Assembly (NCBI GenBank): GCA_015179125.1
Contig: WHVA01000026.1
Location: 124,001-188,000 of the forward strand
Length of the DNA stretch: 64,000 nt
Direction: 5' to 3'
Source of the DNA: Gautieria morchelliformis
Lineage: Eukaryota > Basidiomycota > Agaricomycetes > Gomphales > Gomphaceae
Shown: piece by piece, positions 1,373 to 42,172 of the stretch
Position numbering within the stretch: position 1 is the stretch's first letter
Layout: each line of letters opens with the position of its first letter
Translations under genes and position numbers: made by a program
The notes under the pieces: generated by a model
Told to the model about the DNA's origin: nothing
Database searches by the model: none
Seen by the model: the letters and a program-made list of their open reading frames with translations, nothing else

Positions 1373-3800
1373 ATGTCCCTTGCCACCACAAATAGTAATT
1401 ACAAGATCGAACCCCTAAATGGGGATAACTACGCCGCATGGCGCCGCGGCCTTGAGTGCATACTTGATGACCAAGAACTGTGGGACATCACAATCAGCAC
1501 CGAGGCTGAACCCACGCCAGCGGACCCGGACAATGTAACGTCGGCAGAGAGACAGGCAATCGCTGATTGGAATAAGAAAGACAAGAAGGCAAGAAAGGAG
1601 ATCTGCTTACGTATATCTGATGATCACCTCGTTTATATTGACCAATTCTTACAGGAAATATTTGAGTCCAAAGGGGCAGTCGGAATTGTCAACCTCCGCC
1701 GCGATTTCTTCCGTACTTTTGCAGAGGATGGAGCCAACATGGAAGAACATGTTCGAAGGCTCCAAAAACTCAGCCAGGAATTGAGCGCCCGTGGTCAATT
1801 GATCACAGACATCGACTTCTCTAATACATTACTCACATCACTGCCGGAATTTTGGTCTTCGTTTATTACTGCGGTTAATGCCGGTGGTGCCACAATCTCG
1901 TCAGACATCCTGATAGCCAGGATCTTGGACGAAGATCGGGTACGACAGGCTGGGTCGACCCGACAAACAGCCCTCAGGACCCAGTCGCGTGACGACTTGG
2001 GTGCCATGAAAGGGAAATGCCACAACTGCAGAAAGAAAGGTCATTACGTTAAAGACTGCTGGGCGCCGGGCGGGGGCAAAGAAGGGCAAATGCTGTCATG
2101 GTACAAACCCAAGAATGATTCAGCTAAGCAAGCAGATGAGAATGATTTCGCATTTATGATTAATGAAATTTCCCTCGTCTCAACGTCAGCATCAAACTGG
2201 CTTGCTGACTCTGTGGCAAGCACGCACATAGCTTGCAACAAAGATGTTTTCTCAATGTACACAGCAGAGAATGTCGAGATTGATGGCATCACACCCGGCG
2301 CCTCGCTCAAGGCACTAGGACGAGGCACGGTGCCTTTGGAATTCAAAGTTGGGTCCAATATATTTATGGTTCAACTCAAAGATGTCAAACATGCACCTGA
2401 GGCGCCGAATGATATAATTAGCGTAGGGCGACTCACGGACATCGGATATTCAGCCACGTTCACATCAGCAGGAGTAGAATTCAAATCCAAAACCGGTACT
2501 ATTTTTGGGATAGGCAGGAAAATAGGGAGGATGTATCAAGTGAGGTGCCGGGTAACACCAGGAAAGGAAGGGAAGGACTTCGCTACTGTAGCAAAGGCAC
2601 GGACTATGGACAAATGGCACCGCGTTCTAGGCCACATCAACCCATGGATGATCCAGACCTTAAAGGGTAACCAACTAGTTACTGGGTTAATCATTGATGA
2701 GTCACAGGCACCGACCCAATGCACCGCTTGCATCCAGGGCAAGTGACACATTGATCTGTTCCCCAAAGACGCTGAGGAAACAGCTCAACTACCCAGTGAC
2801 TTAGTCGTATCCGATGTATGGGGGCCTGCCCAGACCGAAGGCCCAGCCAGGGAGAGATATTTTTATTCTTTCACTGATGCCAAGACCAGGTATTCAACGA
2901 TCTACTTCGGGAACACCAAAGACAAGGCATTGAAGAATTTTGATACCTTCAAGAATCTCATTGAGACACAAACTGGGAACAAAGTAAAAAGGTTCAGATC
3001 CGACAATGGTGGAGAATATATCAACAAACCCTTCAAAGAATACTGTGCCACCCTTGGAATAATTATGGAAATGACTGCTCCATATTCCCCTGCCCAAAAT
3101 GGTATTGCCGAAAGACTCAATAGAACCCTTTTGGAGCATGCACGCGCAATGATATTCGAGAAAAATTTACCGAAGGTACTATGGCCCAAAGCAGTAGCTT
3201 ACGCTTGTTATATCAAAAACAGGTCTCCAACCCGAGCACTTGGGACACACATCACCCCGTATCAAGCCTTCTTTGGGTGGAAACCCGACGTATCAAGACT
3301 GGATGAATTCGGCACCAAATGTTGGGTAATGGTACCCAATCAATGCCGTGCCAAGCTCGACCCAAAAGCAGAAGAGCACATTTTTGTTGGGGTCGCTGAG
3401 AACGCTAAGGCATGGAAATATTATAATCGGCACTCCAGGCACGGACAAGTTTCGAGGAATATCACTTTTGATCTAGGGGATACTACATTACATGGAATAC
3501 TGGACACAGATGATCCTGAGCTTGAGGGGGAGCATCATGGACATGGAACGCACGAGCTACAGACAGGGGGAGTAGAGACAGCAGGAACGACAGTGGAAGA
3601 GACAGCAACAGGGACAGTGGCAGAAGAAGTGAGCAGAGATGAGGATGGAGATGCGGGGAAGACTCCACAGATGTCTGTGGCGACGGCACTGGCAACAGAA
3701 GTTCGACGCAGCACCAGAACGACCAACAGGCCAGACTACTGGAAACTGAACGATCCAGACTCAGTGGACCGTGCACTAATCAGCAATGAGATCGTCATTG
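1373..3800 (+). pseudogene. Ty1/copia gag-pol, truncated before reverse transcriptase
   Basis: One reading frame encodes a copia polyprotein. Residues 1-200 are the Gag (UBN2-like) domain. A CCHC zinc knuckle follows (CHNCRKKGHYVKDC, around 2018-2060). The protease region reads DSVAS where the active site should read DSGAS/T, so the catalytic Gly is lost. A GAG-pre-integrase HHCC region ends in an in-frame TGA at 2744-2746. Beyond it the same frame carries the integrase core, with Asp at VVSDVWGP, Asp at RSDNGGEY and Glu in NGIAERLN. Similarity stops around 3800 at the linker before reverse transcriptase. No RT, RNase H or 3' LTR was found. The frame stays open to 4159, but that tail looks like unrelated AT-rich sequence. 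The element cannot move on its own. Confidence 0.88.
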
Positions 3801-4290
3801 AACCCCACAGCTGTTGGGTGCATTTATGCTCCTGCACCAAAATCAAGCATAATATATTCGATTTATTGTATGGTGTTTCAATCCTTTCTCACATTGTTCT
3901 TGTACCATGCATCTATTTCTTTGATTATTTTCGAAATTTTCCAGTCACTCCTTATCTCTCCATTTCACTTTGTTATTCCTATTTTCACAGGCGGCTGCAC
4001 CCAGCGGAGTTTGAAATGACTTCGACGCGCGAGCCCTTGGGCGCTAAAGGGCCGGGTGCACGTATATGCCTTCTGAGACAGGATTGTACTCCTCTCTCAG
4101 TGACAATAAATTCACTGAGAGAGGCGAGTAGTATTCTTTGTATTTTCATAGCATGTTGACTGAAAATCATGTAGTATATTTGATTCTAGGTGTTGTATTA
4201 ATATATCAGTGACAATAAATTCACTGAGAGAGTATATTTGATTCTAGCTTTCTAAGAACTCTACCGAACCTTCCCTGCCATAGCCCCTAG
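3800..4290. other. AT-rich junction DNA after the copia truncation
   Basis: The copia polyprotein loses similarity here and is followed by AT-rich sequence without a recognisable frame. The notable content is the duplicated stem-loop described separately. Nothing else is supported. Confidence 0.4.
4091..4124. repeat. 13-bp stem-loop, partly duplicated at about 4205-4233
   Basis: CCTCTCTCAGTGA (4091-4103) is the exact reverse complement of TCACTGAGAGAGG (4112-4124), leaving an 8-nt loop. The loop and right arm recur about 110 bp downstream (TCAGTGACAATAAATTCACT, then GAGAGAG). A shared 15-bp word, TATATTTGATTCTAG, follows both. The layout suggests the end of a small mobile element or a local duplication. 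Confidence 0.7.
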
Positions 4291-9410: not shown

Positions 9411-9761
9411 AACACGACGGAAACTGCACCAATGTGCCATGTACCTTTTTTTTTCTTTCTTCTTCCAAGTTTCTCGTCAATTGACATAAGCATGTCAGAC
9501 ACCAAATGTACTTTACCAGCATTTTCTGGAAGCTACTGGGCTTCAAAAGTACCGTTTTCTCTTCCTGTCAGCATTTTTGTTGAACAGGGAGGGCAAGTGT
9601 AAGGAACCAGCATAACTATTAGCGGAGAACCAATACAGCCGACCACTTACACACACCAAAGGTAAGACACGGGCACCTAGGCCCGTGTCTCCTCATATAA
9701 GTAGTCTACCAAACGATACATGTAAACTAGAGAGAGAGAACCTACCCCGAACATACACTTG
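9411..9761. other. Flank upstream of chromovirus
   Basis: The segment holds a T-rich run (about 9445-9470) and no supported gene. An inverted GACACGGGC...GCCCGTGTC (about 9666-9692) forms a short hairpin. The last five bases (GTTAC, 9762-9766) are the left target-site copy of the element that follows. Confidence 0.4.
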
Positions 9762-9766
9762 GTTAC

Positions 9767-10240
9767 TGTCGGGGACACCCTATTTTCCATTTCCAGTTCC
9801 GACTCCATTTCCGACTCCGCTTCCAGTTCCGATTCCATCTCCGCCTCTGCTTTCGGAAATGATTCCGCATCTGGGAGAACTTCCACCAGTTCTGTTCACT
9901 TTGCCAGTTCCACTCCAATTTCCAACTTCCGCTCTCGGAACAGTGTCGGAAATCAAGCGACTCACGTAATAGGTGGCATCAAGGGTCGATCAAGGGTCAG
10001 GGAGGTCAGGGGGATGCAGGGTTGATGGCAAGTGCCAAGTGTTGTCCCTGGCTGCACAGCGTAGTATAATACGGGCTCGCTGACATTGGGGGTCCTTAGA
10101 CTTTTCTCTTTGGATTTCCCCTTGTCAGGTGAGAATCCCCTCTCTTGTATACTCTGTTGTTCATTTATACATGCTTTGGATTTCCCCTTGTCAGTTGTGT
10201 GGTAGTGTGATCTCCACAACCAGCCAGGGTTGCCCTTACA
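9767..10240 (+). repeat. 5' LTR of chromovirus
   Basis: The LTR begins TGTCGGGGACACCC and ends TTGCCCTTACA. The first 170 bp are an array of degenerate six-base units of the TTCCRN type. A TATAAT box with a downstream start-like region lies at about 10064. Two copies of TTTGGATTTCCCCTTGTCAG occur at about 10109-10128 and 10176-10195, the first followed by GTGAGA. Compared with the 3' LTR, the last 390 bp differ at nine positions. Confidence 0.93.
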
Positions 10241-10426
10241 GCAGAAAAGTCTCTCCCTAGAGGACCGGCAGTCATACTGCGCGTTGCATTCGCCATAGGT
10301 GCGTTCGGAATCGGAGACAGCGACTCAGAGATCGCAACCTCTTCCGCGCACACGGCATACGACAGCCCCTCTTCCTACGTCGAGCTCCCAACCCCGGAAA
10401 TCCCGTCCCACATTTCTCCTTCTGAC

Positions 10427-11601
10427 ATGGATCCAGATTATCGTCTCCGGAATATGGAGGAGGAATTGACGCGGAACCGGATGAAGACCGACGTGATTGA
10501 AACAGCCTTACAAACGATTTTGGCTAAGTTAGATATTCCACAAAGTGGTGGAAATGCAATGCTGGATGAGCCGGATTTCAGAAAAGTGGAACTAGTGGAA
10601 GAGAAGATGTCCGCGAAGTTGGCAAAGGTCAAACCCGCAACTCCGGTGGACTTTGATGGAGATCAGGAGAAGGGACGTGCATTCTTCAACACATGCATCA
10701 TCTACTTCGCAATTGTCGGAGACTCTTTCCGAATGACCAGGCTTGGGTTCACTGGGCATTGTCCTTTTTCAAGTCGGACCGCCCAGCCCGTTTTGCAAAC
10801 AAGGTGATCTGACATGAAGCAAAGGGCAAGGGGAACTACTTCCAGGACTGGGACGCCTTCGAGAAAACATTTTCCGACCAGTTCTGCCCGAAGAATGAGC
10901 AGCTCACAGCCCTTACGAAGCTCGAGGGAACCAGCTGGTACCAGGCCAAGGATCCAGTCGATGACTACATCGACCGCTTTCAGGAGCTCATCGACCTCGT
11001 GGAGTACGACAACGACAAGACAATCGTCATCAAATTCCGACAAGGGCTTGATCTGATGCTCCAGAACCAAGTCGCACTGCTTGGGGATGGAGCTCCGGAT
11101 TTCGATGACCCGGAAGGGTGGTATCAAGCTGCGCAGAGGGTGTCCCGAAACAGGGAAGCAAATGAGGCCTTCATGGAGACAAACCGGAACATGACACGCA
11201 GTTCCGCTCGTCCTCCTCCACCTGTGCCAAAACCCGGAAGTGCATTCATTCCCACACGGAAAATATTTCTGACGGTTGTTCTGCCTGCCCCTATGAGGAA
11301 CCCTAGCCCCCCTCCCTCGAAGAGTGGCCCTGCCCTGATGGATGTTGACCGCATGCACGGAAAAGGCCACGGAACCATCACTTGCTTCCGATGCCAACAA
11401 CCAGGCCACTATGCCCGCAAGTGCCCCCAAGCCTTTGACATCCAGCTTATGACCACAGAGGAGAAACTCGAGCTCCTTCCAGAGTTCCTCGCACTTGCGG
11501 ACATAAGCGGAGTGCCCATTGCGGAAGGAATTTCCGAAAATGCGGAACATGGCACGGCAGAAGTGGAAGATGCATCGGATTTTGTGACGCGCAGCAGGTG
11601 A
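10427..11601 (+). pseudogene. Chromovirus gag
   Basis: The open frame from ATG 10427 gives an N-terminal coiled coil (MEEELTRNRMKTDVIETALQ) and the retrotransposon Gag domain. It then loses frame near 10770-10810, where the main frame also meets a TGA. The second part (readable from about 10815 to 11601) supplies the rest of the Gag core (YIDRFQELIDL), a Pro-rich linker and a CCHC knuckle (CFRCQQPGHYARKC, about 11382-11423). The same frame as ATG 10427 stays open upstream to the LTR edge at 10242 and is conserved in the inverted copy, so the protein may start earlier than this ATG. It packages element RNA when intact. Confidence 0.85.
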
Positions 11602-11818
11602 GATGTGTGCCCCTGCTGCCTGTACATAACCGGTTTGCCTGTCTCGAAGTAGAGAATTAAAAGCCCCTACTCCCCTCACTTCATACAGAACCACCGGATA
11701 AAGTCACACAAAAACCGAATCCGACAGCCCATCCATCCCGCATCCGCCCTGGGAGAGATGCCTTCCGAAGCGCTATGTTGTTGCTGCCACCCCTGGCCCC
11801 AAGTCACTAGTCATTAAG

Positions 11819-14800
11819 GTGGAGATCCAGACGACAGATACAGCAGAAGTCAAATCCGGACCCGCCCTTGTCGATTGCGGGGCCACTGGTCAGTTTATAG
11901 ACGGGGACTATGTGGAACGGAACCGACTGACCACATGGAACTTGCAACGTGCAATCCCGGTGTTCAATGTGGATGGAAGCCCCAATAAGGCAGGGTCCAT
12001 CACGGAGATAGTAGACACAATTCTCCGCTACGATGGACACACAGAACGCACTTCCTTTGCAGTCACCAGTCTGGGGAAGCAAGGCATCATCCTCGAGTTT
12101 ACCTGGCTTCAGGAGCACAACCCGGAGATCAATTAGCAGACTTGGAAGGTGCTGATGAGTCGATGCCCAGCCAAGTGTCACATGTGCCGGTCGGAAATGC
12201 AGAAGAAGCGCCAGGAGCAGCGGAAGACCGAACGGCTCATACAGACATGTCGTTCTGGCCCCCATCCAATGCTTGCAGAAGAAGACTCAGAAGCGGAATT
12301 TGAACTGGCTCCCACTTCCAATTCCAATTCCAATTCTGACTCCGATGTCATCCGACTCAGCCCGGAAGACACTCTGGCGGAGGGGGAGCGTTTGCTGTAC
12401 GTAAACCTTCCACCGGAAGCGGAACACATCCGCGCGACCGGAAATATTTTGCAATGCCTTGCTGAAGCCTCCAAGAAGCATGATAAAGTGGAAGCGGAAA
12501 TTCCGGAGTACCTGCAGGAGTTCGAGGACGTCTTCTCCAAGGAGTCATTCGATGCCCTGCCTCCACGGAAGCTGTGGGACCATGCTATCGAGTTGGAGCC
12601 TGGGTCAAAGCCTACCAACTGCAAAGTCTACCCGCTGTCACCCAAGGAGCAGGTAGAGCTCGATGCATTCCTTGCGGAAAACCTCCGTACAGGGAGGATC
12701 CGCCCCTCCAAGTCACCCATGGCATCCCCGGTGTTCTTCATCAAGAAGAAGGACGGCTCGCTCAGACTTGTGCAAGATTACCGGGCCTTGAATGCGATAA
12801 CGATCAAGAACCAGTACCCCATTCCACTCATTTCCTAACTGATCACACAACTCCGCAGGGAAAGGTACTTCACCAAGCTGGATGTCCGCTGGGGCTTCAA
12901 TAATGTTCGGATCCGGGAGGGAGACGAGTGGAAGGCCGCATTCCGCACCAACCGAGGACTCTTTGAGCCGCAGGTCATGTTCTTTGGCCTCACCAACAGT
13001 CCTGCCACGTTCCAGACGATGATGAATGACATTTTCCGTGACATGATAGCAGAAGGGGTTGTCTGCGTCTACCTCGATGATATCCTCATCTTCACAAAAA
13101 CAATGTCAGAACATCGGGAAGTCGTGCGGAGAGTGCTGGAACGGCTCCGGGAATACAACCTGTGTCTCAAGCCGGAAAAGTGCGAATTTGAGCGGACACA
13201 GATAGAGTATCTTGGGGTGATTGTGTTGGAAGGAAAGGTGGAAATGGACCCAGTCAAAGTTTCCGGTGTATCGGATTGGCCTGTGCCGTGGAACAAGGAG
13301 GTCCAGTCCTTCATTGGGTTTGTCAATTTCTACCGGCAGTTCATCAAGGACTTCTCCTGCCATGCCCGTGCCCTCTTCGACCTCACCAAGAAGGAGGTTG
13401 GATGGCAGTGGGGAGAGCCAGAACAAGCCTCCTTTGACAAACTCAAGGAGCTGATCACTTCTACCCTGGTCCTGATCTTTCCTGACGACTCTCGCCCTTA
13501 TCGAGTCGAGGTGGATTCTTCCGACACAGCTACCGGAGCGGTCTTGTCACAACAGTCATTGGAAGATGGTGGGGGGTGGCATCCGATTGCCTTCTTCTCT
13601 AAGAGCCTTAGTCCAGTCGAGTGGAACTATGAGATCCATGACAAGGAGATGCTGGCAATCATCCGAGCGCTGGAGGAGTGGCGACACTTCCTCGAGGGTG
13701 CTCGATGCCCATTTGAGATCTGGACAGACCACAAGAACCTCGAGTATTTCCGCACATCTAAGAAGTTGAACCGACGACAAGCACAGTGGTCCCTACACCT
13801 GTCCCGGTTCGACTTCATGCTCCACCACTGCCCTGGCCGCACCATGGGCAAGCCCGATGCCCTATCCCGCCGTGCGGATCATGGAAGCGGAAGCGGAGAC
13901 AATGCGGATATGACACTGCTCTTCCCAAGTCTCTTTGCAATCCGCGCCCTCGAAGGAGTGACTGCAGTTGGGGCAGAAGCGGAAATGCTCCGGGACATCT
14001 GGAGGCAGTACCGGAGTGGAGAGAAGGAGGAGTCGGTGGTGAAAGCGGTGGAGGAACTTCGGAAAGGGCACTCACGGTCTGTACGGACAGCGGAATGGAC
14101 GGAACGTGATGGGCTGCTCCACTTCAGGGGCAAGGTCTATGTTCCAGGTGGGGCGGGCCTCCGCCGCCGCATTGTGTCCCAGCAGCACGACACAGGGGTC
14201 GCTGGGCATGCTGGCAGGTGGAAGACACTGGAGTTAGTGGCTCGGAACTACTGGTGGCCTCAGATGTCCCACTACATTGGACAGTACGTGAAGACATGTG
14301 ACCTTTGTCTCCGAACCAAAGCACAATGACATCCGCCAGTTGGAGAACTTGTTCCACTCCCGATTCCAGAATCCCGCTGGGACACCATCAGTGTCGACTT
14401 CATCGTTGAACTCCCAGAGTCTCATGGCTATGATGCGATCATGAACGTCGTGGACTCAGTAAGCAAGGTGTCCCACTTCATTCCGACACACACGACGATC
14501 ACGGCCCTTGGAGCGGCCCGCCTGTTCCTTGCGCATGTCTGGAAGTTGCATGGGCTCCCAAAGCAAGTTGTTTCCGACCGAGGTCTGCAGTTTGTCATGG
14601 AACTGACTTGGGAGCTCTATTGCCTGCTTGGAATAAAGCTGGCTACCACCACAGCGTACCATCCACAGGGTGATGGACAGACGGAACGGGTCAATCAGGA
14701 GTTGGAGCAATATCTCCACCTCTTTGTCAATGAGAGGCAGGATGACTGGGATGAGTTACTTCCACTGGCGGAATTCCAATACAACAACCATGTACATTCC

Positions 14801-15109
14801 GCCACACAACAGACTCCCTTTATGCTTGACTCCGGACAACACCCGCGGATGGGCTTCGAGCCATGCCAGGCAGAGTCCCGACTCGAGACAGTCAATGAGT
14901 TCCGAGACCGCATGGACTCCACCCTTTCGGAAGCCAAGTCGGCCCTTGCGAAGGCCAAGGATGACATGGCAAGGTACTACAACCAATGCCGGGTTCCTGC
15001 CCTGGAGTACCAAGTTGGGGACAAGGTGTATCTAGATGCAAGTGACATCCGCACCACACGCCCTTCACAGAAGCTTGCCCACCGCTATACCTTGGGCCCT
15101 TCACAGTGA
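11819..15109 (+). pseudogene. Chromovirus pol (protease, RT, RNase H, integrase)
   Basis: All main segments share one frame. The protease motif is LVDCGATGQFID. An acidic Ser/Asn linker follows. Reverse transcriptase spans about 12540-13100 with [19 protein letters not shown] and the catalytic VYLDD. RNase H (about 13500-13870) shows Asp in VEVDSSD, Glu in KEMLAII and Asp in WTDHKN. The integrase zinc-binding HHCC lies at 14188-14310. The DDE core has Asp in SVDFIVELP, Asp in VVSDRGLQF and Glu in GQTERVNQELEQY. Stops interrupt at 12134 (TAG, at a Trp position), 12836 (TAA) and 14327 (TGA, at an expected Arg). A 1-nt deletion near 15095 shifts the frame just before the chromodomain. Confidence 0.92.
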
Positions 15110-15517
15110 TGCGGAGGGTTGGATGGAATGCATACCGCCTCCGACTTCCAATGTCCATGTCCCGACTCCACCCCATCTTCAACGTGGTGAAGTTACTCCC
15201 TACGCTTGAGGACCCAATTCCAGGTCGGAAGGCTCGTCCTCCCCCTCCACCGGAAATTGTAGATGGGGAAGAGCACTATGTGGTGGAACAGATACTGGAC
15301 AGCAGGTTTGTGCGAGGACGACTCCAATTCCTCGTGAAATGGGAAGGGTATGGGTATGAGGAGAATTCATGGGTCCCAGAGCAAGATGTCTCCACTCCAG
15401 ACAAACTCCGTGAGTTCTATAGGACACACCCTGGTGCCCCTCGCCGAATCCGCTCACTGGCATTTCAATCCCTCGTGTCCCGTGCTTCGAGGACGCAGCA
15501 CGCTAGAGGTGGGGTGA
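15106..15517 (+). pseudogene. Chromovirus integrase C-terminus and chromodomain
   Basis: This frame continues pol after the frameshift. It begins with the end of the integrase SH3-like part (GWNAYRLRLP...HPIFNVVKLLP). A chromodomain follows with YVVEQILDSR, FLVKWEGYGYEENSWVP and the closing helix KLREFYRTHP. The aromatic cage positions (Tyr, Trp, and Tyr/Glu before NSWVP) look intact. Such domains direct insertion to H3K9-methylated chromatin in fungal chromoviruses. The frame runs on into the 3' LTR without a stop before 15518. Confidence 0.88.
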
Positions 15518-16010
15518 TGTCAGGGGACACCCTATTTTCCATTTCCAGTTCCGACACCATACCCAGTTCCAACTCCATTTCCTACTCCACTTCCGGTTCC
15601 GATTCCATCTCCGCCTCTGCTTTCGGAAATGATTCTGCTTCTGGGAGAACTTCCACCAGTTCTGTTCGCTTTGCCAGTTCCACTCCAATTTCCGACTTCC
15701 GCTCTCGGAACAGTGTCAGAAATCAAGCGACTCACATAATAGGTGGCATCAAGGGTCGATCAAGGGTCAGGGAGGTCAGGGGGATGCAGGGTTGATGGCG
15801 AGTGCCAAGTGTTGTCCCTGGCTGCGCAGCGTAGTATAATACGGGCTCGCTGACATTGGGGGTCCTTAGACTTTTCTCTTTGGATTTCCCCTTGTCAGGT
15901 GAGAATCCCCTCTCTTGTATACTCTGTTGTTCATTTATACATACTTTGGATTTCCCCTTGTCAGTTGTGTGGTAGTGTGATCTCCACAACCAGCCAGGGT
16001 TGCCCTTACA
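15518..16010 (+). repeat. 3' LTR of chromovirus
   Basis: The LTR begins TGTCAGGGGACACCC and ends TTGCCCTTACA. It is 19 bp longer than the 5' LTR, mainly because of extra units in the TTCCRN array (about 15537-15620). The rest aligns without gaps at a constant offset of 5770 bp. The GTTAT directly after it is the right target-site copy. Confidence 0.93.
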
Positions 16011-16074
16011 GTTATGACTGGTCATCCCGTCTACTGAGATATTTTCGAAGTCATATCTATACCATCTTACACAA

Positions 16075-16822
16075 TTGCATCAGTCTTCATCCGGTTCCGC
16101 GTCAACTCCTCCTCCATATTCCAAAGGCAGTTGTCCAGATCCATGTCAGAAGGAGAAGTATGGGACAGGATTTCTGGTGTTGGGAGCTCGATGTAAGAAG
16201 AGGGGCTGTCATATGCTGTGTGCACGGAAGAGGTTGCAATCCCTGAGTCACTATCTCCGATTCTGAACACACCTATGGCAAATGCAATGCGCTCTACCAC
16301 TGCTGGTCCTCTAGTGGAGAGACTTTTCTGCTGTAAGGGCAACCCTAGCTGGCTGTGGAGGTCACACTACCACACAACTAACAGGGGGAAATCCAAAGGA
16401 TACATATAAATGAATGAACAGAACCCACAAGAGAGGGGATTCTCACCTGACAAGGGGAAATCCAAAGAGAAAAGTCTAAGGACCCCCAATGTCAGCGAGC
16501 CCATATTATACTACACTAGTCCGCAGCCAGGGACAGCACTCAGCACTCACCATCAACCCTGCATTGCCCTGACCCCTGACCCTTGACCAACCCTTGATGC
16601 CACCTACTATGCGAGTCGCTTGACTCCCAACACTGTTCCAAAGGCAGAAGTCGGAGAGTGGAGCGAAATTGGCAAAGCAAACAGAACTGGTGGGAGCTCC
16701 CCCCAAAGCAGAACCATTTCTGAAAGCAGAGTTGGAGATGGAACCAGAACCAGAACCAGAACCAGAAATGGAAGTGGAACTTAGGGTGTTGTCGGAGCTG
16801 GAAAACAGGGTGTCCCCTGACA
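16075..16822 (-). mobile_element. Inverted second copy: LTR plus start of gag
   Basis: On the minus strand 16822 down to 16332 is an LTR of the same family (TGTCAGGGGACACCC ... GCCCTTACA, 491 bp). It continues directly into the gag leader and the first residues of Gag (MDLDNCLWNMEEELTRNRMK; 16179-16120). Homology ends near 16075. The copy has diverged clearly from the neighbouring element; for example its TTCC array reads as GGAACCA units on the plus strand. Whether it is a truncated independent insertion or a rearranged part of an older element cannot be told. Its 5' flank (16823 onward) carries no matching target-site copy. Confidence 0.88.
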
Positions 16823-18388
16823 CCATCCCCTTGTTATTTTGCCCATTGTTCTTACCTCCACCCTGCACCCCCCTTGTAGTTCTTTGTTCCTGATTAGTTA
16901 CTTACCCCATATATCTTATCCGACTTCCACTTTCCTCAGAACATGCTTAGTAGTACAACATTACATGTTGCTTCAGCTCTTTGTATAAAACCCCTTTATG
17001 TATGCTCTCTATTCTGCAATCAGATAATCATCTTCAATATGTGATCCCCTTCACTCTGTCTCCTGTTCTTAGCACAGCGAGTATTGCAAGACCTCTGTCC
17101 CTCTGCTTTCCAACATCTGCCTTTCCACCCTCCTGCCTTCCACCTTCCAACTTAGTTTCCAACCTTTAACCTTTTTCAACACTTTCCAATTTTCAGCTTC
17201 CGATCCAAAATACTTATGATGATAGTTCATTGGGGGCACAACACATACATTGAAGCCACTGTCCTTTCAGATCCGAAACCTTGGGATTCCCAATACATAA
17301 CAGCTGGGATGAAGAATTTGAAGGATGACAAATTGACTAGTTATTTCACTCGTAAATAGCCTCCACACTAGTACTCTCTGGCAGGTCTCGCACTGCTAAC
17401 CCTAACCCCCAATCTCTCGAGTACCGCATACTCCTTATAACACATACTCCAAGGCCTATCTCGAGGGGTATGCGTCAGGAGGGCTTGTAGCGAGCTGCAA
17501 CAGACCGGAGAAACTCGGGTGATCAAAAGAACGAGGATCAGGGACAAGCCCGGGATCCGAACGGATCAGACGGATATAAGAAGGAAGATCATCGGGCTTC
17601 TATCATCAGCGAACAAATGTAAGCTAATCCTTATAAGGCAACTATAAACGTTTATGGGGATACGTGGCTCCGTATTTACCGCGCCGACTTGTGTAAGTTC
17701 GGCAGTGTAATGACAGCTGTGGTCAAGGACTCGCCTAACGGTATCGACATAATATATATGTATGATAAATAGGACGACCTATGAGCCTTGTTAAAGCAAA
17801 AAAAAAGGAAACAAGGACAATGCGAAAAGGAATATAAAATGACAGGAAGCAAGGACCGGTTCCAGGAACAATAGTAATGCTCTGGTAAAGTTGCTCAGAG
17901 GCCGTGGATGGCGAGAAACATCAAACAAGTGGAGATAGATTGGGGACCTATCATGATATCATGACCAGTGGATATTTCCAAACATCGCGAGGTGCCACGG
18001 TGCTGGAAGTAGGGTTAGCTAGCTCCGTGCTCCGGGTAAGGTGCACGAATGTAGTAGGAAGCGATGGAGAGTACTGCCCTCAGTGTAGCCTCAGCCAGAC
18101 GGTCCCATGCAGTGAGTAGGCATCTTGCTCTGCTCAATCAAAACCTGAGTTAATAAGGTCGTGACCCGCCGGCGGGAGTGCACCGTCACATCGTCCCCTG
18201 CGCCAACGACAGTCTGTACACCGAGCTCATCGCCAACGGCCCCTCTCTCAAAGGAGCTGCGCCTTTGGGCGTAACAGGCGTGGGGAGAGTTCAGACGAGA
18301 CGACGAAGTATTAACGCGCAAAATCAGAAAACCTATATTATTAAGGTCATACAATATAAGTATTCTCACTCTCGTACATTTGTTCTTC
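16823..18388. other. Low-information DNA next to the inverted element
   Basis: The first part (16830-17220) is C/T-rich with short repeated words and could be further retroelement DNA, but no LTR ends can be matched. A 48-codon frame at about 17216-17359 has no relatives I recognise. From 17400 to 18388 there is only AT-rich sequence with an A9 run near 17799. No gene is supported. Confidence 0.35.
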
Positions 18389-38632: not shown

Positions 38633-39049
38633 AGCACGCCTTTGCTAGTACTTCCCGTGGCTCCAATTTCTCAGCATCAAGGTTATATGCGGACAAAGGA
38701 AGACTTATATGCTGCGTGCTTTTCGTTGACAGATATATATCATTCCAGGTATCCATGACAAACCACACACGAACCCTGATGCCATCGCGTTATGGCGATT
38801 TGCGTGGCCGGCGATGCCTTTTACAAAAAAGAAAGAAAAAAAACTAGATGATCGTCGTGTTCTTACAATATCTGTTTTATAATACGGGTTCGATCATCGT
38901 TTAGATGATGCACTTGCCATGGTGATGTTTTAACTTATAGGAGCGTTTCGTAGTTCCCATGGCGAGCAACACAATAGGACCGCGTGTGTCATTCCTCCGA
39001 AAAATTAGGTAAGACCGCCTCTTTCACACAACCCGCACTCTGACGTTCA
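38633..39049. other. Non-coding spacer between two tandem repeats
   Basis: A-rich run near 38826-38843 (AAAAAAGAAAGAAAAAAAAC). No gene or repeat is supported in between. Confidence 0.4.
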
Positions 39050-39050
39050 G

Positions 39051-39650
39051 CAGTGTATCATTTTTTTTATTTTTAAACACAAGGGAGGCTGAGTATGCAC
39101 GGTAAGCTGTTGCTTCCTGCCACATGGAGCCTGTTATTCACCTTTTCTCCAGCGTGCAATGTTTCTATCGGAAAGACTACGCCAAGAGACACATACGAAT
39201 AGCAGTGTACCATTTTTATTTTCTAAACACAAGGGAGGCTGAATATGCTGGTACGCTTATTGCTTCCTGCCATATGGAGCCTGATATTTCACCTTTCCTC
39301 CAGCGTGCAATGTTTTGATCGGAAAGACTACGCCAAGAGACACATACGGCAGTGTACCATTCTTGTTTTCTAAACACAAGGGAGGCTGAGTATGCTGGCA
39401 CGCTATTGCTTCCTGCCATATGGAGCCTGTTCTTTGACCGTTCCTCCAGCGTGCGATGTTTCTATCGGAAAGACTACGCCAAGAGACTCATACGGATGAT
39501 ATAGCTGAGTCCAAGGAGAAGGCTATGTTACGGTATTGCTTCCTGCCATATGAAGCCTGCTACTTCACCTTTCCTCCAGCGTGCAATGTTTCGATCTCGT
39601 AGACGACGCTAGAGGCACATACAAAGGATATAGCTGAGCCCAAGGAGAAG
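39051..39650 (+). repeat. Tandem repeat of about 150 bp, four copies
   Basis: Copies start near 39052, 39203, 39350 and 39500, so the period is 147-152 bp. The conserved core runs from TTGCTTCCTGCCATATGGAG through CACCTTTCCTCCAGCGTGCA to GGAAAGACTACGCCAAGAGA. Copies 1-3 share AAACACAAGGGAGGCTGA upstream of the core. Copies 3 and 4 share a downstream block, GATATAGCTGAG.CCAAGGAG, so copy 4 is a variant. The array carries no supported ORF. Confidence 0.88.
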
Positions 39651-42172
39651 GCGGATTATGTTATAAACTCGGAGAGCCAGCTGTCCCGCTCATACCACTG
39701 GCTCACTTGTTGACATCCGTCCATTATATATCCCGTCGCGCAACGTCTCACGCGAATTGGGTCCTTTCATTTGTCTGGCACGATTCGGACACACCCCACA
39801 CCATCGCACCTTTCTTGAAGGATGCTGTGAGGTGGAGACTGACGGTCGCATTGTTTCGAAATATGCCAAACTGAATAACTCTAGAATCTGCCGGAGGCTT
39901 CACCGGACCGTGATTTGTTTTCTGCCGAGGTTCAGGGGTCGCATCACGACGTCGGTAGCCCGGAGCAACTTCCTGCACAGTTCATCGCTCGGAGGCTTAC
40001 GCTACAGGTAGTGAGTGGTACATGGGATCGGGACTGATCAATGATCATGCCGTTTTCTGTTCGATCTTCTATTTGGGCGAGATTGATGATTTATCTCGCA
40101 GATCGTTGACACATGCAGTCTTCGACTGGCAGATAAGTCCTTCCATGTCGAATCCCGCTCTTGACAGCCACGCTGTTCGTTTTTCCTGGTTTCTCTCTCG
40201 CATGCAGGCCAGAGGCACCGATGCTACTTATAAAATCCCCCATAAATTGTTTAAATGGGGGCAGAGCGTCATTCATAACTCCCTCATGCCCTGCACTGAC
40301 AAATTGATTTCATCTCGTATTCCAAGGGGACTGTTCCGATTTCATCTAATCCCGTTCTGTCCCATATGTCCCCTGTGTTGACTCGATCCTTTTTTTCTCT
40401 GCATCACATTGACAGTGCTCAGACGCAACGTTATATTCTCCAGCAGCTTCGGAGGTGTCTTCATATAGACTGGGCATGAATTGTTTCATATCCCCTCTAG
40501 ATAAGAAAGCCGAGAGCCGAGAGTCTATTATCCATATGAACCGATGAATTGCGACACGTGTTGGCTGGATTCTATCGCCAATATGACACGCTTACCATTG
40601 GAATACTGAAGGGAGATACCGCACATCTTACCGGTAAGTATGACATTGAGTTTCTAAGTTAACAGCTATTTGCGGGCGAACCCCAGTATCCCATTCAGCT
40701 TCAGGGTTAAGAACCTTGATGATCAACAAGGCCTAGGAACATCATACTGGAGGTCGCACAAGTGCCGAAGGCCCTCCAGCGGAAGGCCTTCACGTCCGCC
40801 ACACAGCCTTGACGTCGCCAGCTCGGGACATAAGTTGCTGGATGAATCCGCAGTCAACGTGTTGGTAAGCCATCTGTCTCAAAGGGAGATGTGCTTCAGG
40901 TTATCCTGATAGTATAATATTAATGTACTGACGCCTTTCGGGTGCATCGATAGGATGATCATCGGCATGTCCAACGAATATGTTATTGGACTTCACCATG
41001 GAGACCTCGATATACGACAGTGTTCAGACTTCGTTCGTTTAATCCGAGTCCAGGTAACTGGTAAGGCTTCATTCTGTGGCTGACCTCAGCCATATGTAGT
41101 TATCATGCTTCTAAGCCTATGGAATAATGTTAAATAGACTCTCAAGTATACAAGCTGGTGTGACTCGAACCAGCCGTGTCATGGCAATAATAGGCTCAGT
41201 GCACGACGCTCGCACATGAGCGCCACTGGATCAGTGCTGCATCGAGTGAAACTTGACAGAGCGCATGGCGATCCGACCCATCCCGGCCACGAAGCATCAG
41301 GTGCGCAGCCGCAGTCTGATGTTCGCAGTCTACATATAAGTACTGGTGGCAGGAAACTAGAAATGACAAGCAAAGCGGCGGACACCGCGCTTTGGGACGT
41401 GCACTTCAAGTTGACCGTGCACTTCAATTTGACCGTCGGACGTTGTTCCCTTGTTACACCCACGCACGTCGTCCACATACCTTCGCTGTTATACGTCCGA
41501 CCCGCGCGCGAGGTCGTGTGCCGCGTTGGTCTGGAGCAATACGCGCTCTCGGTCACTGGCACCCTCTGGGCTAGAGATTGGAGGCGGGGTGGCTCCATAA
41601 TCAGACCAAGATCGAGCGGCTCTGAGAAGAGTTTCGTGATTAAAGCCAAGGGTGACTGGCACCGCAGGGGAAATTCGGTGGAGGATCCTGGCCAGTTTTT
41701 GGACGTACTGGAGAGGCTTTGTCCCGGTATCACAAAAGCTGCTATGGGCGAGCAGGAGGATGCTGAGATTCGGTCCGAGGTGGAAAGCGAGGCAGATGTA
41801 AAGTGAAGGGGAGTCAAGTCAAGGTCAATGAGGTGCATAATTGAGAATGTTTGGCCGCCGGGCCTCAGATCATCGGATCCGAGCTACTACATCATAATGT
41901 GCGCTGCTTGGAAGACATAAACAGTCAAGTTGTACCTGATCATGTGGGTTGTCAACAGCAGGCACTTATTCAAAGGGGGGCGTAACTACTACTATCTCGT
42001 TGACACGATGGCAAACCCCACGCAAGGAACTGGGGGGTTAATTTCTTCTCCAGACAGCTAATGATATAAACTGTGTAAAATAATATCCATAATCTAAAAT
42101 TAGAAATGGGGTTGGCGAGCAGTACAAATTAGAGGAAGCTTGAACGATGATTGTGGCAGAATAACAGCCGTA
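39651..42172. other. Unassigned DNA with weak open frames
   Basis: Frames at 40022-40381 and 40670-40909 (plus) show no domain. A 196-codon plus-strand frame at 41216-41806 overlaps a 219-codon minus-strand frame almost exactly. The plus version ends in an acidic, more protein-like tail (GEQEDAEIRSEVESEADVK), so it is the likelier of the two if either is real. Neither has introns or relatives I know. I therefore list them here rather than as genes. Confidence 0.3.

Follow-up and report, generated by a model that had tools for sequence, protein, structure and literature searches.

Two LTRs of one chromovirus family face each other at close range in the genome of Gautieria morchelliformis, a gomphalean basidiomycete fungus. 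We consider this arrangement most likely to be incidental: in a stretch rich in transposons, layered insertions would have left the two LTRs in this position. The site itself is a real, well-bounded, and ordinary nested insertion with an imperfect fold-back. The locus was analysed within a window of 64,000 nt (contig WHVA01000026.1, 124,001-188,000, forward strand); "the window" means this whole stretch, and all positions without a contig name are counted from its first base. The features on which the argument rests are as follows:

9598-9766, plus strand: opening portion of the R1 3' LTR, which element 1 interrupts (from comparison with R1 copies L076-L080, which are uninterrupted)
9762-9766: left copy of the target duplication of element 1, GTTAC
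9767-16010, plus strand: element 1, a chromodomain Ty3/Gypsy retrotransposon (from its LTR pair and Pfam domains)
9767-10240, plus strand: 5' LTR of element 1
15518-16010, plus strand: 3' LTR of element 1 (LTR3), 493 bp, the left arm
15843-15918, plus strand: 76-bp segment with perfect complementarity to the inverted LTR, within a well conserved LTR block
16011-16015: right copy of the target duplication of element 1, GTTAT
16016-16071, plus strand: final 56 bp of the R1 LTR, with CTTACA at the end (from R1 copies, with limits from the copy on C1048)
16072-16331, minus strand: leader of element 2, truncated at 16072; its part 16072-16314 shows 85% complementarity to 10257-10499
16332-16822, minus strand: LTR of element 2 (the inverted LTR), 491 bp, the right arm
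16477, minus strand: putative transcription start within the inverted LTR (AGACTTTTCT with complementarity to the leader, TATAATA 33 bp upstream)
16823-17303, plus strand: repeat R2, interrupted by element 2 (R2 copies continue past the edge)

Element 1 and the two facing arms

Element 1 has LTR ends of the TG...CA type (TGTC...TTACA) and is flanked by a short target duplication, the two copies of which agree in four of five bases, with one mismatch. Without gaps, its two LTRs share 97.5% identity (K2P 0.026): 12 of 474 aligned bases differ, and 19 gap columns fall into two gaps. The three plus frames of 10501-15517 contain 39, 19, and 49 stops. Pfam searches on the separate open stretches of the element recovered a zinc knuckle, RVT_1 (partial), RT_RNaseH, Integrase_H2C2, rve, and Chromo; one of the five stretches scanned, 12149-12835, was without a Pfam match. 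The last part of RVT_1, RT_RNaseH, and Integrase_H2C2 lie within 12977-14326 and are followed by rve at 14441-15106, with an E-value of 3.5e-05 and a score of 24.4 bits that is under the Pfam cut-off of 32.6. The chromodomain (PF00385, 15106-15516, E 4.4e-16) comes after rve at the 3' end of pol. This domain order, RT-RNase H-integrase, is that of Ty3. A first-pass annotation of this DNA had called the LTRs chromoviral, and the label is borne out by the presence of reverse transcriptase/RNase H, integrase, and chromodomain in element 1.

The same annotation had placed the LTR at 15518-16010 (plus strand) opposite an LTR of the same family at 16332-16822 (minus strand). Both coordinates hold, and the spacer between the arms measures 321 bp. 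Pairwise alignment of LTR3 with the inverted LTR gave 418 matches, 67 mismatches, and 14 gap columns in five gaps, corresponding to 86.2% identity without gaps. By BLAST, the identity was 83.6% with gaps at an E-value of 4.8e-152, far beyond chance. The longest perfect run between the arms is 76 bp, and the pairwise alignment contains no second run of at least 20 bp. This 76-bp block is a well conserved part of the LTR: across 73 sampled LTR sequences it shows 98.4% identity to LTR3, against 93.3% for the remaining LTR. With the two arms included, the whole block is present in 30 of 74 distinct LTR sequences, and every one of the 74 carries at least one of its exact 21-mers.

LTR3 also contains the 21-mer CTTTGGATTTCCCCTTGTCAG twice, at 15878 and 15944, the first copy being followed by GTGAG. 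The segment 15899-15964 thus bounded in LTR3 resembles a 66-nt intron bordered by a short duplication. Elsewhere in the window, Ty1/Copia gag and integrase-related domains occur at 1373-4156, and overlapping direct repeats, 78-84% alike and offset by about 150 and 300 bp, occupy 39049-39663.

Proposed layered insertions at the locus

The 321-bp spacer is composite and consists of the right target duplication copy (16011-16015), the R1 LTR end (16016-16071), and the element 2 leader (16072-16331). The first-pass annotation had described the inverted copy as also carrying leader sequence of the family. This is correct for 16072-16314, which is complementary to 10257-10499, but the homology ends at 16072 and the 56 bp next to it belong to the other repeat. 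Consistent with a boundary inside the spacer, all 39 listed matches to 16011-16331 (window excluded, from the best 40 of 971 candidates scored) begin at query position 62 or 70.

The R1 LTR is a 225-bp stretch with TG...CA ends, and its limits were set by an independent 5' copy on C1048 (L082) that ends in CTTACA. In copies on C204, C256, C704, and C1048, the first part of the stretch is found again 7-10 kb away in the same orientation. Judged from these LTR-like ends and the recurrence, R1 appears to be another LTR retroelement, different from the family of element 1. Among the few R1 and R2 copies fetched for comparison out of those listed, all five of R1 (L076-L080) run uninterrupted across the element 1 junction as empty sites, and all four of R2 have other sequence, without an LTR match, at the edge that adjoins element 2 in the window. 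The R1 copies without element 1, together with the near-perfect target duplication, indicate that element 1 landed inside the R1 LTR. We also considered the inverted LTR as the 3' LTR of a rightward element, in view of the adjacent purine-rich GGGATGG. This candidate was rejected because R2 copies that have no LTR carry the same or nearly the same bases.

We propose the following order of events. An older family element (element 2, minus strand) would have inserted into repeat R2, after which R1 would have inserted into the leader of element 2. The latter step we infer from the R1 LTR end, which exactly abuts the leader at 16071/16072, the second junction of this event not having been found. 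The 5' part of R1 and the remaining part of element 2 were probably deleted; blastn recovered neither the rest of element 2 nor the R1 5' LTR, either to the left within the window or in the adjoining 4 kb upstream. Finally, element 1 inserted inside the R1 LTR, placing LTR3 321 bp from the inverted LTR.

The divergence between the arms bears on whether the two LTRs share an origin at this place. The inverted LTR differs from LTR3 by a K2P distance of 0.158, against 0.026 between the LTRs of element 1, so that the arms have no common time of origin. By this measure, the inverted copy belongs to an older or divergent lineage, and the distances agree with an inverted copy that predates element 1. 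A copy of the same family with LTR and leader in the right order would also result if element 1's own end had been inverted locally or duplicated as a foldback. We reject this origin as extremely improbable on the arm divergence and on the R1 LTR sequence that sits between the arms; in addition, the outer edge of element 2 is a clean insertion in R2. An artefact joining unrelated copies is conceivable for a highly repetitive family in an assembly of 122 Mb and 1,113 contigs. However, the junctions are biologically sensible, with LTR ends, a target duplication, and empty sites, and the arms are too different to be collapsed copies, which makes this explanation very improbable as well. The layered insertions set out above are very probably the origin of the facing LTRs.

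Inverted LTR pairs across the genome

The LTR family is abundant. Exact matches to the 15-base start of the LTR number 2,486 in 122 Mb (1,242 forward, 1,244 reverse), or about one per 49 kb, whereas the reversed pattern used as a control had 0 matches. The count is a lower bound for family size, as it leaves out diverged starts and the true family is larger. Random placement of the 2,486 starts alone would, by simple arithmetic, give each LTR about 0.03 inverted neighbours at a distance of up to 1.5 kb.

We compared this with 59 LTR places that are top-ranked matches and not a random sample. They derive from 73 loci, after eight same-place duplicates had been dropped along with six loci lacking a focal LTR, namely L012, in which the LTR piece falls outside the focal position, and the five R1 loci (L076-L080), which the compared set did not contain; seven hand-picked loci (L038-L044) were kept out of the sample. 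An inverted LTR sequence lies within 1.5 kb at five of the 59 places, window included, and a direct LTR neighbour at seven. Three of the five inverted neighbours are tail-to-tail (among them the window and one 67-bp fragment) and two are head-to-head. Among 100 listed of the 2,486 starts, six neighbouring pairs on opposite strands are less than 3 kb apart, five head-to-head and one tail-to-tail. A genome-wide pattern search for exact 13-base LTR ends placed tail-to-tail at 1-61 bp, a range outside which the window pair falls, returned one pair, counted on both strands. This search gave tail-to-tail LTR ends at G000:C25:44389-44421, which lie 7 bp apart with a palindrome at the junction.

Arm identity was compared for eight inverted pairs, namely four of the five inverted neighbours (the fragment being left out) and four noticed among the best LTR3 matches. 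The values were 98.8, 97.7, 96.6, 96.3, 95.1, 93.4, 86.2 (window), and 79.5%. The window pair thus ranks seventh, in a ranking that leans against it because the four pairs from the LTR3 matches, which gave the four highest values, were noticed on account of both arms matching LTR3 well. In six of the seven other pairs the arms are 93-99% identical, and only the window and the 79.5% pair are tail-to-tail. As far as sampled, the window pair is ordinary for this genome and is not singled out among inverted pairs.

The hand-picked loci include inverted and tandem arrangements. Head-to-head pairs at L038, L039, L040, and L041 have arms 96-99% identical at spacings of 49, 85, 0, and 1,737 bp; these arms are better matched than those of the window pair, and LTR-driven transcripts would diverge there. 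Three family LTRs stand in direct tandem at L043 (C178:150000-154300, at 1124-2645), with nearly equal spacers of about 35 bp, and two stand in direct tandem at L042 (C371:220500-225000, at 1776-2718), with zero bases between them.

Folding, transcription start, and a possible hairpin RNA

Folding predictions suggest that a hypothetical transcript across the site can form a long imperfect stem. The first-pass annotation had expected a stem close to 490 bp and had raised the possibility of arms too dissimilar for a stable duplex. At the arm identity found here, the plus-strand fold of the 1,305 bases reaches an MFE of -842.5 kcal/mol, against a mean of -384 and a lowest value of -390.5 over ten folds in which the right arm had been shuffled in blocks of two bases. 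The duplex would be stable, but it is imperfect: 428 of the 493 bases of the left arm are paired to the right arm, and no more than two helices (76 and 26) extend over 20 or more pairs without a break. The minus strand forms the better fold, at -925.6 kcal/mol and with helices 93 and 69 pairs long, since G-U pairs take the place of many A-C mismatches.

This asymmetry follows a wider trend in the family. Among the 18 listed copies below 92% identity to LTR3, the inverted copy included, C>T exceeds G>A relative to LTR3 on the sense strand in 16 (with one tie and one opposite case), and A>G exceeds T>C in all 18. Near copies also show 4-9 A>G differences from LTR3, so that part of the A>G bias belongs to LTR3 itself. 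Among listed copies that have 20 or more such changes, the inverted LTR shows the strongest C>T versus G>A skew (24 vs 5), a feature noticed post hoc. As the C>T and A>G bias is common to most older LTR copies, we do not claim that the better minus-strand pairing is a selected feature. The excess of both changes in older copies could reflect strand-biased mutation or differences between lineages.

A putative transcription start can be placed within the LTRs. The start of the leader (10241-10262) is complementary over 10 nt to AGACTTTTCT, which is found in each of the three LTRs, at 10098, 15868, and 16477 (minus strand). Complementarity of this length to LTR3 was reached by 20 of 5,000 leader shuffles. 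In LTR3, TATAATA lies at 15835 and the AGACTTTTCT site 33 bp past its start, with the same spacing in the inverted LTR. Fungal LTR retrotransposons of the Tf1/Tj1 type are self-priming and use the 5' end of the mRNA as primer, as described for Tf1 and Tj1 (PMC4600332). Element 1 resembles them in that its leader is complementary to 10 nt past a TATA-like box of the LTR, a likeness drawn from sequence. This would fit Tf1-like self-priming and yields the putative start. A hypothetical minus-strand transcript starting at 16477 would pair 138 of its 146 R-U5 bases with LTR3 antisense, the longest helix being 52 bp. A minus-strand transcript from the inverted LTR would be a better hairpin candidate than plus-strand read-through, because the pairing is more continuous and no read-through of the element 1 3' end is required.

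The idea that nested LTRs give rise to hairpins has already been published for other species; a literature search returned no report of such a hairpin LTR locus in Gautieria. For EVD (ATCOPIA93) in Arabidopsis, nested or tandem LTR insertions were proposed as sources of dsRNA through hairpins and convergent transcription; one antisense nested insertion was confidently found, and the hairpin and siRNA output was only proposed (PMC11624286). The likeness lies in same-family inverted LTRs brought close by antisense insertion of one copy into another. However, EVD is an active element that had newly inserted into itself, with LTRs 2562 and 1942 bp apart (PMC11624286), whereas the Gautieria locus involves a fungal Ty3 chromovirus with arms 86% identical, 321 bp apart, and R1 in between. 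For silencing by an inverted transposon copy, Mu killer of maize is the established precedent (PMC3440606). Both cases have inverted transposon copies able to form hairpin RNA, but Mu killer is a partial inverted duplication of a DNA transposon with reported silencing (PMC3440606), while the Gautieria locus is known from its sequence alone.

Could the site be a working hairpin-RNA locus, at which read-through or minus-strand transcripts fold, Dicer cuts them, and the small RNAs silence the LTR family? A Dicer dimerisation domain is encoded at two loci of the G. morchelliformis genome, which means that hairpin RNA could be processed by the host. The stable computed folds on both strands, the perfect 76-bp stem in a conserved block that shares at least one exact 21-mer with each of the 74 sampled LTR sequences, the extensive R-U5 pairing of the minus transcript, and the Mu killer precedent (PMC3440606) would all fit such a role. 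Against it, the arms are just 86% identical and have only 57 of 473 LTR3 21-mers in common, and the family includes several inverted pairs whose arms match better. Moreover, silencing by Mu killer is reported to have accompanied short antisense transcripts and not read-through sense ones (PMC3440606). Taken together, a silencing role for the fold-back is possible and not favoured over other inverted pairs, and we regard a working hairpin locus at this site as improbable.

More doubtful still is a broader model in which the orphan promoter of the inverted LTR would produce a short self-folding transcript, and tail-to-tail pairs would jointly act as a self-limiting brake that scales with copy number. 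If this reading of the inverted-LTR promoter were true, small RNAs would arise from the highly conserved LTR block of the family; if expressed, the locus would be a fungal case in which self-insertion gives rise to a hairpin that restrains a retrotransposon. With arm identities graded from 79.5 to 98.8%, the eight compared pairs form a natural series in this genome that could reveal whether arm identity or spacing predicts small-RNA output.
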